This document shows positions 2,338 through 28,977 of a DNA stretch of 36,015 nucleotides, piece by piece. The position numbers and the translations under genes were made by a program. Numbering within the stretch: position 1 is the first letter of the stretch; each line of letters begins with the position of its first letter. The notes under the pieces were generated by a model. The model did not search any database. It was not told where the DNA came from and worked only from the letters and a program-made list of their open reading frames with translations. This stretch comes from a virus, in IMG/VR virus record IMGVR_UViG_3300037584_000643, positions 1 to 36,015 of that record; one strand, given 5' to 3'.

Positions 2338-2838
2338 GTGGACTATCCTGAGATAAATTTACCTGATAGCAATAATATTCTTATACCACCTAAAACAATT
2401 TTTTATTCCCCAGTGGCAGAGATTCCATATCTAGATCCTTTACTCCTTCCAAGTTTGGAACAAGTTCAGTCGGGACTTGGGGAAGATCAGGCAGAAAGTT
2501 CTTCAAAAAAAAAGGAAGAAGACGAGGAAGGGCTAAATATAAACCCAGAACAGATACCAACGAACCTGCCACAAAACTTAGAAAATACTTCAACAGAAGA
2601 ACCTGTAGGTACTTTTAATATACCTTTTTTTGGAGAAATGCCTATACCTGCACCAGAAGTTATAGCGTCAAGTGTTATAGCTGCGGGTACTGCGTCTGTT
2701 GTATCTGTAGCTGGTGGTATTGCAATGCAAGCTGTGGTTACACAAATTAAAAAGATATTTAAAAAAATATTTACTAAAGTTCTTAAAAAAGAAGTCGCAA
2801 ATATAAAAGAAAAGATTAATAATAAAGATGGTAGGTAG
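2338..2838 (+). CDS. Proline-rich membrane-type hypothetical protein (GTG start)
   Basis: The 166-residue protein uses GTG at 2338, 10 bases after the collar gene. Residues 1-100 are proline-rich and acidic, with a charged SSSKKKEEDEEG stretch near residue 55. About residues 108-132 are hydrophobic (VIASSVIAAGTASVVSVAGG), and the C-terminus is a lysine-rich amphipathic helix. This one-pass topology with a basic tail would suit a membrane-acting protein, possibly in lysis or entry, but no holin or spanin signature is definite. From memory, similar proteins with proline-rich N-termini and the same hydrophobic-basic ending occur in cyanophages. It converges with the reverse-strand cassette and its stop lies in a shared hairpin. 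Confidence 0.65.
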   Translation: MDYPEINLPDSNNILIPPKTIFYSPVAEIPYLDPLLLPSLEQVQSGLGEDQAESSSKKKEEDEEGLNINPEQIPTNLPQNLENTSTEEPVGTFNIPFFGEMPIPAPEVIASSVIAAGTASVVSVAGGIAMQAVVTQIKKIFKKIFTKVLKKEVANIKEKINNKDGR

Positions 2839-2878
2839 AGTTCACATACCTGTACTATGTGGCGTCTAAACTACCTAC
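2831..2878. terminator. Nested inverted repeat between convergent genes, candidate bidirectional terminator
   Basis: An outer 8-bp perfect stem (GTAGGTAG 2831-2838 with CTACCTAC 2871-2878) encloses an inner 6-bp stem (CACATA 2843-2848 with TATGTG 2856-2861). The UAG stop codons of both convergent genes lie inside the outer arms. A T-rich stretch follows on the + strand (2879-2887, with A interruptions). It is positioned to end transcription from both sides. The stem pairing is direct observation; terminator function is inferred. Confidence 0.5.
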
Positions 2879-3405
2879 TTAAATTTTTCTGAATTAGCAC
2901 GAACATAACTTCTAATATTTATTACATCACTACAAAGACCAGCAAATTTTGATTTAGGGTTAATCATATAACCAGCAGCGTGGAGTTGTGAACACTTTAA
3001 AACTCTCACTAATTGCTTATCATGGACTTGCTTGTTTAGTTCTTCTTTGGCTAGGTCTAGCTTCACTTTTGCTAGTTCAGAACACGTTTCATTATTAGTA
3101 CCTAAAGGAACCATAAATGATAACTGAAATCCCCAACCTTCATTAATGCTGTATGTATCTTCTCCTTGTGCATCATTACCAGTATAAAAAGGTGTAAATG
3201 CCATAGTTGGTTGGCTACAAACTAAATTACCAAACTGCAATTTACCTGTCATACCATTATTAACATTCATATTTTGATTGATAATACTGGAATTACCAAC
3301 AGCATTAGGAGAAGCTATAACATCTGTCTCACCCTCTGCTAAAACTGAGCTACTGACTAAAGACGCTGAGAGAAGTGATAACGCTAGTAGTTGTGATCGA
3401 ATCAT
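2875..3405 (-). CDS. Secreted four-cysteine hypothetical protein (176 aa), reverse-strand cassette
   Basis: Residues 1-23 form a classical Sec signal peptide (MIRSQLLALSLLSASLVSSSVLA, cleavage expected before EGETDV). The mature part holds Cys63, Cys108, Cys138 and Cys158, enough for two disulphides outside the cytoplasm, a beta-type middle (GFQLSFMVPLG) and a charged helix at about 106-137. It is the last gene of the three-gene reverse-strand group, and its start lies 56 bases inside the preceding gene. I recall proteins with the same layout (N-terminal VIASPxAV-like motif, MVPL and CSD motifs) in marine cyanophages, function unknown. It could act in the host periplasm or outer membrane, for example in superinfection exclusion or lysis; neither is shown by the sequence. 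Confidence 0.75.
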   Translation of the reverse strand: MIRSQLLALSLLSASLVSSSVLAEGETDVIASPNAVGNSSIINQNMNVNNGMTGKLQFGNLVCSQPTMAFTPFYTGNDAQGEDTYSINEGWGFQLSFMVPLGTNNETCSELAKVKLDLAKEELNKQVHDKQLVRVLKCSQLHAAGYMINPKSKFAGLCSDVINIRSYVRANSEKFK

Positions 3406-3715
3406 TCTGTGTAATCTTTTCTATCATTTGACTTGCTGCTCTTGTTGTAACAGACAAAGACCAATCAGAAGTTACAGTTTTTGGAGTAAACACTGCATCT
3501 GCATGAGCTATACCACCGCTAGATGCACTTGTAACCTCTATATTAGAACCTTCCCAAGTGTTTATAGCTGATCCATATTTCTCTGTTACTACGCTTCGTG
3601 TGATAGTCTGAGTGGTATTCTCCGTTCTGTTACTAGAGCCAGTAGTCCAAGTTGGTAAAGGATTAGCAAAACAAGGTGTAGTTACAAACAAACTTAGTAA
3701 TAATAGCTTTTTCAT
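3350..3715 (-). CDS. Secreted Ser/Thr-rich hypothetical protein (121 aa), reverse-strand cassette
   Basis: Residues 1-17 (MKKLLLLSLFVTTPCFA) are a short, strong Sec signal peptide. The cysteine at position 15 is not in a lipobox, so signal peptidase I cleavage before NPLPTW is more likely than lipidation. The mature protein is rich in Ser and Thr, apparently beta-structured, and ends TTTSVITSLSVFSQ. Its start overlaps the stop of the upstream membrane-protein gene by four bases (ATGA), and its 3' end overlaps the next gene by 56 bases, so the three are translationally coupled. I recall similar proteins with a TSLSVFSQ-like ending in marine phages, without assigned function. It is probably an exported partner of the other two proteins. 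Confidence 0.75.
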   Translation of the reverse strand: MKKLLLLSLFVTTPCFANPLPTWTTGSSNRTENTTQTITRSVVTEKYGSAINTWEGSNIEVTSASSGGIAHADAVFTPKTVTSDWSLSVTTRAASQMIEKITQNDSITTTSVITSLSVFSQ

Positions 3716-4119
3716 TTTTTTGTGGGATCAACTTTGATTACGTCAGGTTTTGTTGTGACGATCTCTAATGGCTGTTTTATTATTATAGTTGAGGTGCTAC
3801 CACTAGAGTCGTTAATTACACCATTTTCGTTTTCTTTCTTTTTCTTCTTAGCTCCTTGTGCAGCATTAACGCTTATTCCTAGTCCACCTAAAATATTTCC
3901 TAATAAACCAGCAGCAAATGTGCTATCTACCCTAGGTTGATCTGGAATATCTATACCAAATAATTTATTAGGTAACTTAATATATCCAAGAGATAAAACT
4001 AATAAACACCAAGTTAATATAAATGCTTGAGCAATAGTAGATACTAAGAAAGTTATTTTCTCTTGATAGTCTGGTTTATCATCATCTTGTTTATTTATTT
4101 TTTTTTCTTGTTCTGCCAT
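3712..4119 (-). CDS. Membrane protein, first gene of reverse-strand cassette (135 aa)
   Basis: A charged N-terminus (residues 1-21) precedes a clear transmembrane segment at about 23-47 (ITFLVSTIAQAFILTWCLLV...). A second, weaker glycine-rich hydrophobic stretch follows at 66-86, then KKKKK at 91-95 and a polar tail. One or two membrane passes with a basic cluster is compatible with a holin-like or anchor role, but no family is recognisable. The gene is divergent from 4185-4349. The 65-bp gap between them must hold any promoter for this cassette; I see only weak -35/-10 candidates on the minus strand there. Its neighbours in the cassette are exported proteins, so all three probably act at the envelope. 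Confidence 0.7.
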   Translation of the reverse strand: MAEQEKKINKQDDDKPDYQEKITFLVSTIAQAFILTWCLLVLSLGYIKLPNKLFGIDIPDQPRVDSTFAAGLLGNILGGLGISVNAAQGAKKKKKENENGVINDSSGSTSTIIIKQPLEIVTTKPDVIKVDPTKK

Positions 4120-4184
4120 AAAAGCTGAGTATCTTGTCTAATACTAGCAATTTAGCTATGTTTGGAAAGTAACACAAGATTATT

Positions 4185-4349
4185 ATGCTTAAACTTTTAA
4201 AACCAGTACTACTAAATTTCTTTACTACAACTGCTGTAAAACGACTTATTGTTGATCTTCTTAGAGCTATCTGCAAACAAACTACCAACACACTAGATGA
4301 TCGTGCTGTTGACTTATTAGAGCATCAACTATTTCCTAAAATGAACTAA
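4185..4349 (+). CDS. Small basic/amphipathic hypothetical protein (54 aa)
   Basis: ATG at 4185 gives 54 residues, starting MLKLLKPVLLNFF and continuing with an amphipathic helix (KRLIVDLLRAICK) and a second helix containing TLDDRAVDLLEHQL. The pattern of a hydrophobic Lys-rich N-terminus followed by (I/L)VDLLRA and T-DD is one I recall from tiny proteins of many marine phages near structural or lysis genes; function is unknown. It lies one base before the next gene, which supports it as a coding gene despite its size. Membrane association of the N-terminal helix is possible. Confidence 0.65.
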   Translation: MLKLLKPVLLNFFTTTAVKRLIVDLLRAICKQTTNTLDDRAVDLLEHQLFPKMN

Positions 4350-4686: not shown

Positions 4687-4908
4687 ATGGATAAAAATTT
4701 TAAAATCCTAGAAAAGTTACATTTACTTCTTGCAAAAGAACTGACAGATAAGATTACAAGTGGAGAAGCAAAGGCAGGGGATCTAAACGTAGCTAGACAG
4801 TTTCTAAAAGATAATGGTGTTGAGTGCTTACCAGTAGAAAAGAACCCAATGCAAGAGCTTATGGAGAACCTACCAGACCTAGATGCTGTACCTTTGGCTG
4901 ATATATAA
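4687..4908 (+). CDS. Terminase small subunit (T7 gp18-like DNA maturase A)
   Basis: The 73-residue protein has a helical core, LEKLHLLLAKELTDKI followed by SGEAKAGDLNVARQFLKDNG, then a proline-containing acidic tail. The leucine-rich helix, SGEA turn and ARQFLKDNG motif are typical of small terminase subunits in T7-like marine podoviruses. It is short compared with T7 gp18 (89 residues), as is common in that group. It lies upstream of the large terminase with one gene between them. In T7 the small subunit recognises concatemer DNA and recruits the nuclease-ATPase; that role is carried over by homology. Confidence 0.75.
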   Translation: MDKNFKILEKLHLLLAKELTDKITSGEAKAGDLNVARQFLKDNGVECLPVEKNPMQELMENLPDLDAVPLADI

Positions 4909-4909
4909 A

Positions 4910-5527
4910 GTGAGAGTGCTTGTAGGGTGCGAATATTCGGGTATTGTTAGAGATGCGTTCGCTATCAGAGGACATGATGCCTGGTCATGTGACATCTTAG
5001 ACACTGAATCATCAGGTAATCATATAAAAGGAAATGTTCTTGATTATTTAGACATGGATTGGCAGCTTGCCATTTTACACCCTCCCTGTACGCATTTATC
5101 AATATCGGGTGCGAGGTGGTTTACAGAGGGTAAAAAACCTATGCACCTTAGAGAAAAAGCACTTGACTTTGTGCAACAACTTATGAACGCACCAATAGAT
5201 CATATCTGCATTGAAAATCCTGTATCTGTTATCTCTTCACATATAAGACAGGCAGATCAGACAATCAACCCTTATCAATTTGGACATCCAGAATACAAAA
5301 AAACTTGTTTATGGTTAAAAAATTTACCTTTATTGAAAGAAACAAATAATGTTCTTGAGGAAACAAAAGAATTGCCTGATAAAATTGCAAAAAGAATTTG
5401 GTGGTTAGGTTCTGGAAAAGGTAAGGAAAGAAGTAAATTCTATACTGGTATAGCAGCAGCAATGGCAGAGCAATGGGGTGATGAAACTAAATTACCAGTG
5501 CCAGTAGAACAGCTGTGCCTGTTTTAA
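4910..5527 (+). CDS. C5-cytosine-methylase-like phage DNA methyltransferase
   Basis: I place the start at GTG 4910, not the in-frame ATG at 4883, because MRVLVGCEYSG matches the usual beginning of this phage family and avoids overlap with the terminase gene. The 205-residue protein has a Rossmann-type N-terminus (RVLVGCEYSGIVRDAF), an acidic loop (SCDILDTE), HPPC at residues 57-60 like the PC catalytic motif of C5 cytosine methylases, and IENP at 101-104 in place of ENV. A conserved FGHPEYKKTCLWL block follows. It is much shorter than a full C5 methylase and has no obvious target-recognition domain, so substrate and activity are uncertain. No restriction enzyme is nearby. Its place between the two terminase genes suggests timing with packaging. 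Confidence 0.75.
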   Translation: MRVLVGCEYSGIVRDAFAIRGHDAWSCDILDTESSGNHIKGNVLDYLDMDWQLAILHPPCTHLSISGARWFTEGKKPMHLREKALDFVQQLMNAPIDHICIENPVSVISSHIRQADQTINPYQFGHPEYKKTCLWLKNLPLLKETNNVLEETKELPDKIAKRIWWLGSGKGKERSKFYTGIAAAMAEQWGDETKLPVPVEQLCLF

Positions 5528-26505: not shown

Positions 26506-28977
26506 ATGACATCTAGTTTTCAAAGTACAGCTTTTCAATCCTCTGCAAAACCTGTAGATACTTTTGTAGCACCGCCAAGTGTTCTACCTAAAACTGGTAT
26601 TGAATCTTTAGCTGAAACACTGGCTGTTGTAAATCCTAATCTTCAGAAGTTCATTGGTGCAAAAATAGAAGATGCTATTGATGATGAAAAAACAAAATTT
26701 CAAAACCTAGCAATACAAGAAGATTTAACTAATGGTGTCTTTGGTAATCTTGTTACTAAAATAAGAAAAAAAGAAGGTTCAGAAGCTGCTGATCAACTTA
26801 TAGGTGCTTCTATTATTGGTAAGAAAGCTTATGCTAAGCAGAAATTAATAAACTCTACTTTTCAGATAGATAATCTTTTACAACGCAGATATAAAACAGA
26901 TACGATTGATATCGTAAACAAAGATGGATCTATTACAAATACACCTCTAAATCAAGTTTCTCCTGATTCAACAGAATTTAAAAATTGGTCTCAAGGTATT
27001 ATTAATCCTGTAATTACGAATATATCTGCTGATAGTGATTCAGAAATTATTAATAAATTTGTTTTACCACAACTACAAAAATCATTAATTAATTTAAATA
27101 CAGAAGCTAGAAAACAATTTAATACTTTTAATAAAAATAGATTATTACAAGAAAGCACAACTACTGTTAAGACTGCTGCAAAGTTTTTTATAAAAGCACA
27201 AACATATAATTTTAGAGATCCAGAAACAAAACGAGCTATGGAAGATGATCTTAAAAATAATCTTTCTAATTTAATTGTTAATATGAAAAATGCAGGTATT
27301 ACAGGTAGTGACCTAACAACCCTAAACGAAAATTTAATAGATAATGTTGTAAATATTGGTGATTTATCTGTTACTCAAGGTCAGTTTAATTATGCTCGTA
27401 AGCTAGTAAATTTCTTAGGTGACTCTATACCAGGTTCTTCACCTGGAAAAACATTAAAAGATAATCCTAAATGGCTTGAAAAAACAACAGATTTTTTTAC
27501 TGATTTATATGAAAAAGAAGTAGAAAATACCTTAAGACCAGAGAAACTACGCAAGGCACAAAGAAGAAATTCTTTTAATACTCAAATCGAAGATTATCGT
27601 AATGAGAAAGATCCAATAATTAGGAGTCAAAAATATGAAAAATTAAAATTAGATTTTCCAGAGAAAGAATTTAAAACTGATATTGATGAGTTTGGTGTTC
27701 TTGATAATAAAACTTTTACCGAAAGAGCTAATCAATTTAGAAAAGACTTAAGGAATGGGCTGTATCTTGTTGATGGTGAACCTGATAAAGGAGATGCTTT
27801 GCGTGAATTAGATATTATAGAACGCTTAGATCCCACCCCAGATTCAGAAAGTCAAGAAATACTTAAAGATTTAGAAACTCGCATAAAGGAAATGAAAGGT
27901 TATGCACTTGATCTTGAAAAATCAAAAACAAAAATAATGAATGATGCTAAATCAGCATTAAGCAGAAAAAATAGATTTGCTGGCAGAAGTTTAAGTAATA
28001 AAGATGCAAAATTATTATTACGATATGAAAGAATTTTAAATGATGAAATTGATGAAAGGATGGATGAGTTTGAGGAAGAGAATAAAAAACCAATGATAAG
28101 AAGGGAAGCAAAGGAAATGTTAAGAGATTTAGATAATCTCTTAAAACTTGAACTTGGAGTTTTCACAGAAAGTGAAGCAGGGATTGAATATATTCCAGAA
28201 GATGATGCTATTGGTAAACAAGGTGAAATATTAAATCCATTCTCAGCAGCAGACAGAAAGAAAAAACCTATACAACAATTAGAACAACCAGTAAATGAAT
28301 CAAGAAATGAGACCTTAAAAGACGATTCTTTTGATATACCAAAATTAAAAGATCAAGCTTCTAATAACCAAGTTACAGACAATCGAATTGTAAGTGACAT
28401 GACCCCTACAGGTCTTGGGGCAGAGGATGGAGATCTAATTGCTATGGCAAGAATAAATCAAAATACAAATAAGGAGAATGATTTGACGGAAAAAGAACCA
28501 GCAATATTAAGAACTGGAAACGGAGTAACAAGGATGGAAACAAACTTTCCAATAATTTATAACTTAGCAAAAGAAGTAGGTATTAAATTTCCAGAAGTTG
28601 TAGCTGCTCAATTCGGCCTAGAATCTGCTCATGGAGAAAAAGAATCAGGCAAGAATAATTATTTGGGCATTAAAGCAACACAACAAGAAATAGCTGATGG
28701 AAAAGCTACATTACGTAAAACAAAAGAAATTATTAATGGTAAAGAAGTTCTTGTTGATGCCTACTTTAAGAATTTTGATTCAATAAAAGATATGTTATTG
28801 CAGTATAAAAAAGAATGGAATGATGATTTCTTAGATAGAAAAGGAACTATTAATGTCAATACAGCAGAAGAAGCTGTTCAAAGATTAAAAGATAATAAAT
28901 ATGCTACAGATCCAGATTATGTTAAAAAGGTAATAAGTGTTATAAAAAGTGCTAAAACCAATCCTCCACTTTTCTAG
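26506..28977 (+). CDS. Internal virion protein (T7 gp15-like) with C-terminal glucosaminidase domain
   Basis: The 823-residue protein is in the gp15 position and of similar size (T7 gp15 is 747). Residues up to about 640 are helical and charged, as expected for the core and ejection tube. From about residue 680 it carries an FlgJ/LytF-type glucosaminidase domain: FPEVVAAQFGLESAHGE with likely catalytic Glu706, then SGKNNYLGIKA, a YFKNFDSIKDM segment and AVQRLKDNKYATDPDYVKKV. That domain should cut peptidoglycan during DNA entry. In T7 the wall-cutting domain is at the N-terminus of gp16 instead, so the activity has moved to this protein. Confidence 0.85.
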   Translation: MTSSFQSTAFQSSAKPVDTFVAPPSVLPKTGIESLAETLAVVNPNLQKFIGAKIEDAIDDEKTKFQNLAIQEDLTNGVFGNLVTKIRKKEGSEAADQLIGASIIGKKAYAKQKLINSTFQIDNLLQRRYKTDTIDIVNKDGSITNTPLNQVSPDSTEFKNWSQGIINPVITNISADSDSEIINKFVLPQLQKSLINLNTEARKQFNTFNKNRLLQESTTTVKTAAKFFIKAQTYNFRDPETKRAMEDDLKNNLSNLIVNMKNAGITGSDLTTLNENLIDNVVNIGDLSVTQGQFNYARKLVNFLGDSIPGSSPGKTLKDNPKWLEKTTDFFTDLYEKEVENTLRPEKLRKAQRRNSFNTQIEDYRNEKDPIIRSQKYEKLKLDFPEKEFKTDIDEFGVLDNKTFTERANQFRKDLRNGLYLVDGEPDKGDALRELDIIERLDPTPDSESQEILKDLETRIKEMKGYALDLEKSKTKIMNDAKSALSRKNRFAGRSLSNKDAKLLLRYERILNDEIDERMDEFEEENKKPMIRREAKEMLRDLDNLLKLELGVFTESEAGIEYIPEDDAIGKQGEILNPFSAADRKKKPIQQLEQPVNESRNETLKDDSFDIPKLKDQASNNQVTDNRIVSDMTPTGLGAEDGDLIAMARINQNTNKENDLTEKEPAILRTGNGVTRMETNFPIIYNLAKEVGIKFPEVVAAQFGLESAHGEKESGKNNYLGIKATQQEIADGKATLRKTKEIINGKEVLVDAYFKNFDSIKDMLLQYKKEWNDDFLDRKGTINVNTAEEAVQRLKDNKYATDPDYVKKVISVIKSAKTNPPLF

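Follow-up and report, generated by a model that had tools for sequence, protein, structure and literature searches.

A conserved envelope-directed gene module of picocyanophages as a candidate host-lysis module

The window, which is the whole 36,015-nucleotide stretch of viral DNA analysed here, belongs to a T7-like cyanopodovirus that lies near P-SCSP2 and P-SCSP1 in clade MPP-C, and its capsid protein matches that of P-SCSP1u at an E value of 2e-94. An integrase-like ORF is present and no DNA polymerase was noticed among the ORFs, in line with PMC9860041. Three overlapping ORFs occupy the minus strand at 2875-4119, where an earlier note had described a three-gene cassette, and their coordinates, order and overlaps of 4 and 56 nucleotides are all reproduced. 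With the names gp165 and gp166 taken from the S-SSM2 and S-RIM8 records, the features of the locus are as follows.

2338-2838, plus strand: pro (P0004), Pro-rich, with a membrane segment and a cationic C-terminus, convergent with gp165 here; phrog_9426
2875-3405, minus strand: gp165 family (P0001), 176 aa, putative signal peptide, four Cys; phrog_1755/848
3350-3405, minus strand: gp166/gp165 dual-coding overlap, where the 3' end of gp166 encodes the putative signal peptide of gp165, in the +1 frame here
3350-3715, minus strand: gp166 family (P0002), 121 aa, putative signal peptide, Ser/Thr-rich; phrog_650
3712-4119, minus strand: tm (P0003), 135-aa membrane protein, DUF6450-like (PF20048); phrog_2714/721
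4120-4185, minus strand: AT-rich leader upstream of tm, similar across several MPP-C loci
4687-4908, plus strand: small terminase subunit (PF11123), the flank marking the T7 holin/spanin slot

The proteins of the cassette (tm, gp166 and gp165) belong to PHROGs of unknown function. That they are envelope-directed, as had been claimed, agrees with hydropathy: tm has hydrophobic stretches at 25-42 and 67-84 and a Lys-rich C-terminal side, while gp166 and gp165 each have an N-terminal hydrophobic segment followed by an AXA-like site, the signal peptides being assigned by eye and hydropathy. The C-terminus of gp166 carries a conserved SLSVFSQ, and the four cysteines of gp165 are conserved without exception across 89 aligned homologues. 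In pro, the N-terminal part is Pro-rich and a single membrane segment at 108-125 precedes the cationic C-terminus. The reading frames of tm and gp166 share only the ATGA at 3712-3715. Elsewhere in the window, the internal virion protein at 26506-28977 ends in a C-terminal Glucosaminidase domain (PF01832), which was not found in P-SCSP2 or in 20 other cyanophage records searched. A 214-aa ORF at 4883-5527, between the small and large terminase genes and absent there in P-SCSP2, resembles a DNA methyltransferase fragment by eye, with no Pfam match.

The overlap between gp166 and gp165 is a distinctive feature of the locus, since the signal peptide of gp165 is encoded within gp166 and the reading frame used differs between clades. 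The gp165 frame is strongly depleted of stop codons over the last 60 nt of gp166 in MPP-C (+1 frame; 1 observed against 112 expected), over the last 180 nt in other podoviruses (-1 frame; 17 against 407) and over the last 90 nt in T4-like phages (-1 frame; 13 against 129), these being counts from related and so not independent sequences. Together with gp165 homologues in 18 MPP-C isolates, 83-90% identical to the window protein used as query, the depletion in MPP-C marks the genes as real beyond chance. The overlap, 56 nt at 3350-3405 in the window, is about 189 nt in many other loci, and for a majority of 88 other podovirus loci the closest gp165 start codon is an ATG located 189 nt ahead of the gp166 end. 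A programmed frameshift may serve gp165 in other podoviruses, but most loci have instead this ATG at -189, where the stop depletion begins. Because the coding frame runs back inside gp166, several annotated gp165 starts are wrong, and those of P-SSP7, P-RSP2, S-RIP2, S-TIP37, S-RIP1, S-SBP1 and SS120-1 fall past the signal peptide. Such a nested start, with the frame varying by clade, makes this overprinted signal peptide unusual.

The earlier note had mentioned similar proteins in other marine cyanophages, and this is borne out: 249 phage records are matched by the window gp165 and 462 by a myovirus query, and all 462 are by organism name Synechococcus, Prochlorococcus, cyanophage, marine or uncultured phages. 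A further 11 loci with gp165 homologues lie in bacterial genomes and are taken, from titles and contig sizes, for phage contigs that were binned with cellular genomes. The genes also behave as the single unit that had been proposed. In searches that drew mainly podoviruses, gp165 is present in 66 of 66 gp166-anchored loci and both gp166 and gp165 in 51 of 51 tm-anchored loci. Among 254 loci surveyed gp166 is absent from 14, of which those inspected begin no more than about 170 nt from the end of a contig, so that gp166 accompanies gp165 wherever the flanking DNA sufficed. Since the plus-strand pro ORF travels with the cassette, the unit comprises at least four genes. Independent occurrence of homologues, which the note had named as evidence against its proposal, holds for tm only and not for gp166 and gp165: tm is separable, with weak homologues in 5 of 13 phages that lack gp165 and gp166. 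These five are T4-like phages with a GH19 endolysin, a point against the lysis reading discussed below.

Across the same 254 loci the podovirus layouts are either pro-tm-gp166-gp165, all co-directional, or tm-gp166-gp165 with pro convergent, and the T4-like layout is a gp166 paralogue, gp166 and gp165, then usually pro and tm. The T4-like genes are homologous and syntenic with the window cassette, from which they differ in that the gp166 paralogue (phrog_564) precedes the cassette in place of tm and that pro and tm are mostly found past gp165. In three T4-like loci (L004, L005, L011) this secreted paralogue is directly upstream and often ends in ELSVFK. The orientation against the rest of the genome, which the note had emphasised, holds in the window, P-SCSP2 and P-RSP2, whereas in the other cyanopodoviruses examined the genes are co-directional. 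Of the podoviruses examined, MPP-C and P-RSP2 alone show the inversion; in the T4-like S-SSM2 the cassette is opposed to the neighbouring replication genes. Genome comparison therefore speaks against cargo genes, of which the cassette had been called typical: the gp165-gp166 pair recurs in conserved order in many picocyanophage genomes, T7-like and T4-like alike, which on this comparison marks the module as core and its inversion as a lineage trait.

What, then, does the module do, and what does its position say about this? T7 keeps its holin and spanins between the tail-fibre and terminase genes, and it is between these genes that the module sits in T7-like cyanophages. S-SBP1 has, in order, tail fibre, pro, tm, gp166, gp165, a phrog_12220 protein and TerS, and P60 has tail fibre, gp36, a GH19 lysozyme, a phrog_12220 protein, gp39 and TerS (TerS read by eye in both). 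The S-CBP42 locus resembles that of P60, and gp165, gp166 and tm are all absent from both phages. The GH19 endolysin locus, found in P60, S-CBP42, S-CREM2 and S-B68, resembles the module in the host group of its phages and, in P60 and S-CBP42, in its slot, but unlike the module it encodes a recognisable cell-wall hydrolase. More broadly, gp165 and gp166 are absent in 13 of 13 GH19-endolysin cyanophages and the GH19 catalytic domain is absent from 13 module phages and the window (0 of 14), so that the two do not co-occur across 27 genomes; the first set was picked by GH19 and tested for the module and the second picked by gp165 and tested for GH19, the split is counted without correction for phylogeny among non-independent lineages, and one phage tested, KBS-S-2A, is more distant and classed with neither family. 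No Amidase_2 or Phage_lysozyme match was found in any module-bearing podovirus tested. This exchange at the same spot with a cell-wall-cutting enzyme suggests, from gene order, that the module helps to burst the host cell. The module is nevertheless not simply a substitute for an endolysin, because DSL-LC02 has both the module and a free-standing Phage_lysozyme ORF, in which the GH19 profile covers only the N-terminal 54 positions and the rest is Phage_lysozyme domain. This 224-aa ORF (DSL-LC02 88000-89600, locus L466) fuses an N-terminal stretch, in common with cyanophage GH19 endolysins, to the lysozyme domain. The small phrog_12220 protein (L012 2931-3185, L310 4704-4967), which adjoins the module as well as the GH19 lysozyme, has one hydrophobic segment and a coiled-coil-like tail and is possibly i-spanin-like.

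The distribution of the module also bears on superinfection exclusion or host-surface remodelling, whereby secreted proteins placed late in the outer membrane would block the receptors or the DNA entry of other phages. Signal peptides, membrane anchoring and confinement to phages of one host group would all fit such a role. Known exclusion genes, though, are usually patchy in distribution, and here many lytic phages from two families share the module in conserved synteny; the GH19 endolysin swap would be left unexplained, and PADLOC and NCBIfam return nothing for tm, gp166 or gp165 as defence or exclusion families, which together make this role unlikely. A single weak match of pro to LeoBC (E 0.0014, over a charged low-complexity stretch) was disregarded. 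Less probable still is that the proteins are virion-associated or assembly components, such as tail or ejection parts, as their late-region place beside tail-fibre genes might imply. Signal peptides would take them out of the cytoplasm, where virions assemble, and no module member matches solved structures by sequence even though the P-SCSP1u capsid chain is present in the same set. Hypothetical virion proteins of S-CREM2 were rejected as cassette members, for S-CREM2 has neither gp165 nor gp166.

Promoter motifs bear on timing. Upstream of T4-like cassettes, [AC]TAAATA occurs at -45 to -10 in 50 of 58 cases, with 2 expected and 75 of 306 control upstreams containing it, an excess that is partly post hoc because this form was tested after the sequences had been seen, yet one that agrees with the published S-PM2 late promoter NATAAATA (PMC2984593), which the motif resembles. 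The strict T4 late promoter TATAAAT shows no excess there (3 of 58). For the window cassette no repeated motif was found as a phage-RNAP promoter, and the AT-rich leader at 4120-4185 has no second copy in the window.

The slot, the GH19 lysozyme swap in P60 and S-CBP42, the GH19 split and the T4-like late-promoter motif point to lysis, one of the three functions that the earlier note had proposed and the best explanation here: we give about an even chance to the cassette and its Pro-rich neighbour being a late-expressed host-lysis module of picocyanophages. The likeness to T7 extends to gene content, in that T7 17.5 (holin) and 18.5/18.7 (spanins) likewise comprise a small membrane protein and two overlapping envelope-directed proteins in the same slot. 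A nested or overlapping pair in a lysis-type slot is expected of spanins and is found here, with stop depletion indicating dual coding. Unlike in T7, the secreted proteins lack a lipobox, Pfam and NCBIfam yield no match to a named family of holins or spanins, there is an extra Pro-rich membrane protein, and the gp165 records are by name from picocyanobacterial, marine or uncultured phages. The lipobox pattern occurs in 0 of 89 gp165 and 0 of 100 gp166 sequences, although many gp165 rows begin inside the signal and make that test partial, and for want of a lipobox gp166 and gp165 are not standard spanins. As regards an i-spanin, gp165 has a long predicted helix at 104-144 but a cleavable-looking signal; as regards a class II holin, tm has two segments in the window and P-SSP7 and one above threshold in P-SCSP2, S-SBP1 and S-SSM2. 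Pfam and NCBIfam give no lysozyme, amidase or peptidase match for the cassette proteins, and the lack of a recognised muralytic domain in every module member, like that of a lipobox, tells against the lysis reading.

In the mechanism that we propose, tm would insert in the inner membrane and permeabilise it like a small two-helix holin, while gp166 and gp165 would leave via Sec and form oligomers, either periplasmic or in the outer membrane. The predicted gp166 (pLDDT 85) is a long two-stranded beta hairpin with antiparallel strands at 25-47 and 97-120, which could act as a stalk, and the predicted gp165 (pLDDT 61.6) combines a beta hairpin at 68-97 with the long helix, an arrangement that two disulfides could stabilise. 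With pro bridging from the inner membrane, these proteins would jointly breach the cyanobacterial outer envelope, the task of spanins in E. coli phages. The same models raise the alternative of a trans-envelope channel, in which gp165 would resemble an outer-membrane TolC of half size and gp166 would supply a beta-barrel stalk, the two forming a pore for export, nutrient uptake or gradual leakage and not for bursting. Weak OEP (PF02321) matches occur in 7 of 89 gp165 members (best E 0.014), several TolC/Opr chains are among the Foldseek top 50 for gp165 (E above 1), beta-pore stems are among the top fold matches of gp166 (E 0.1 to 1), and hhalign of gp165 against host OEPs gives P=0.0015 but a probability of 16% over the strand-to-helix motif. 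Every one of these matches is, however, below significance, the gp165 model is of low confidence and a two-residue alternation is not significant in either long strand of gp166 (p 0.10 and 0.76), leaving the channel improbable. A fold assignment for gp165 was dropped, its structure being too uncertain.

Marine fixed carbon is moved when phages lyse Prochlorococcus and Synechococcus, yet the papers searched identify no lysis cassette in most phages of these hosts; nor was a description of this module found in the open-access literature searched. Returning to the lysis reading, a wider and distinctly more tentative form of it is that in many of these phages lysis proceeds through secreted beta-rich pore-like envelope proteins that replace spanins, exchangeable with a GH19 endolysin locus and possibly without a dedicated free endolysin. 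A lysis role is testable at once, because S-TIP37 carries the module and has a genetic system (PMC8776855). If the module does carry out lysis, then these would be named lysis genes that span two phage families.
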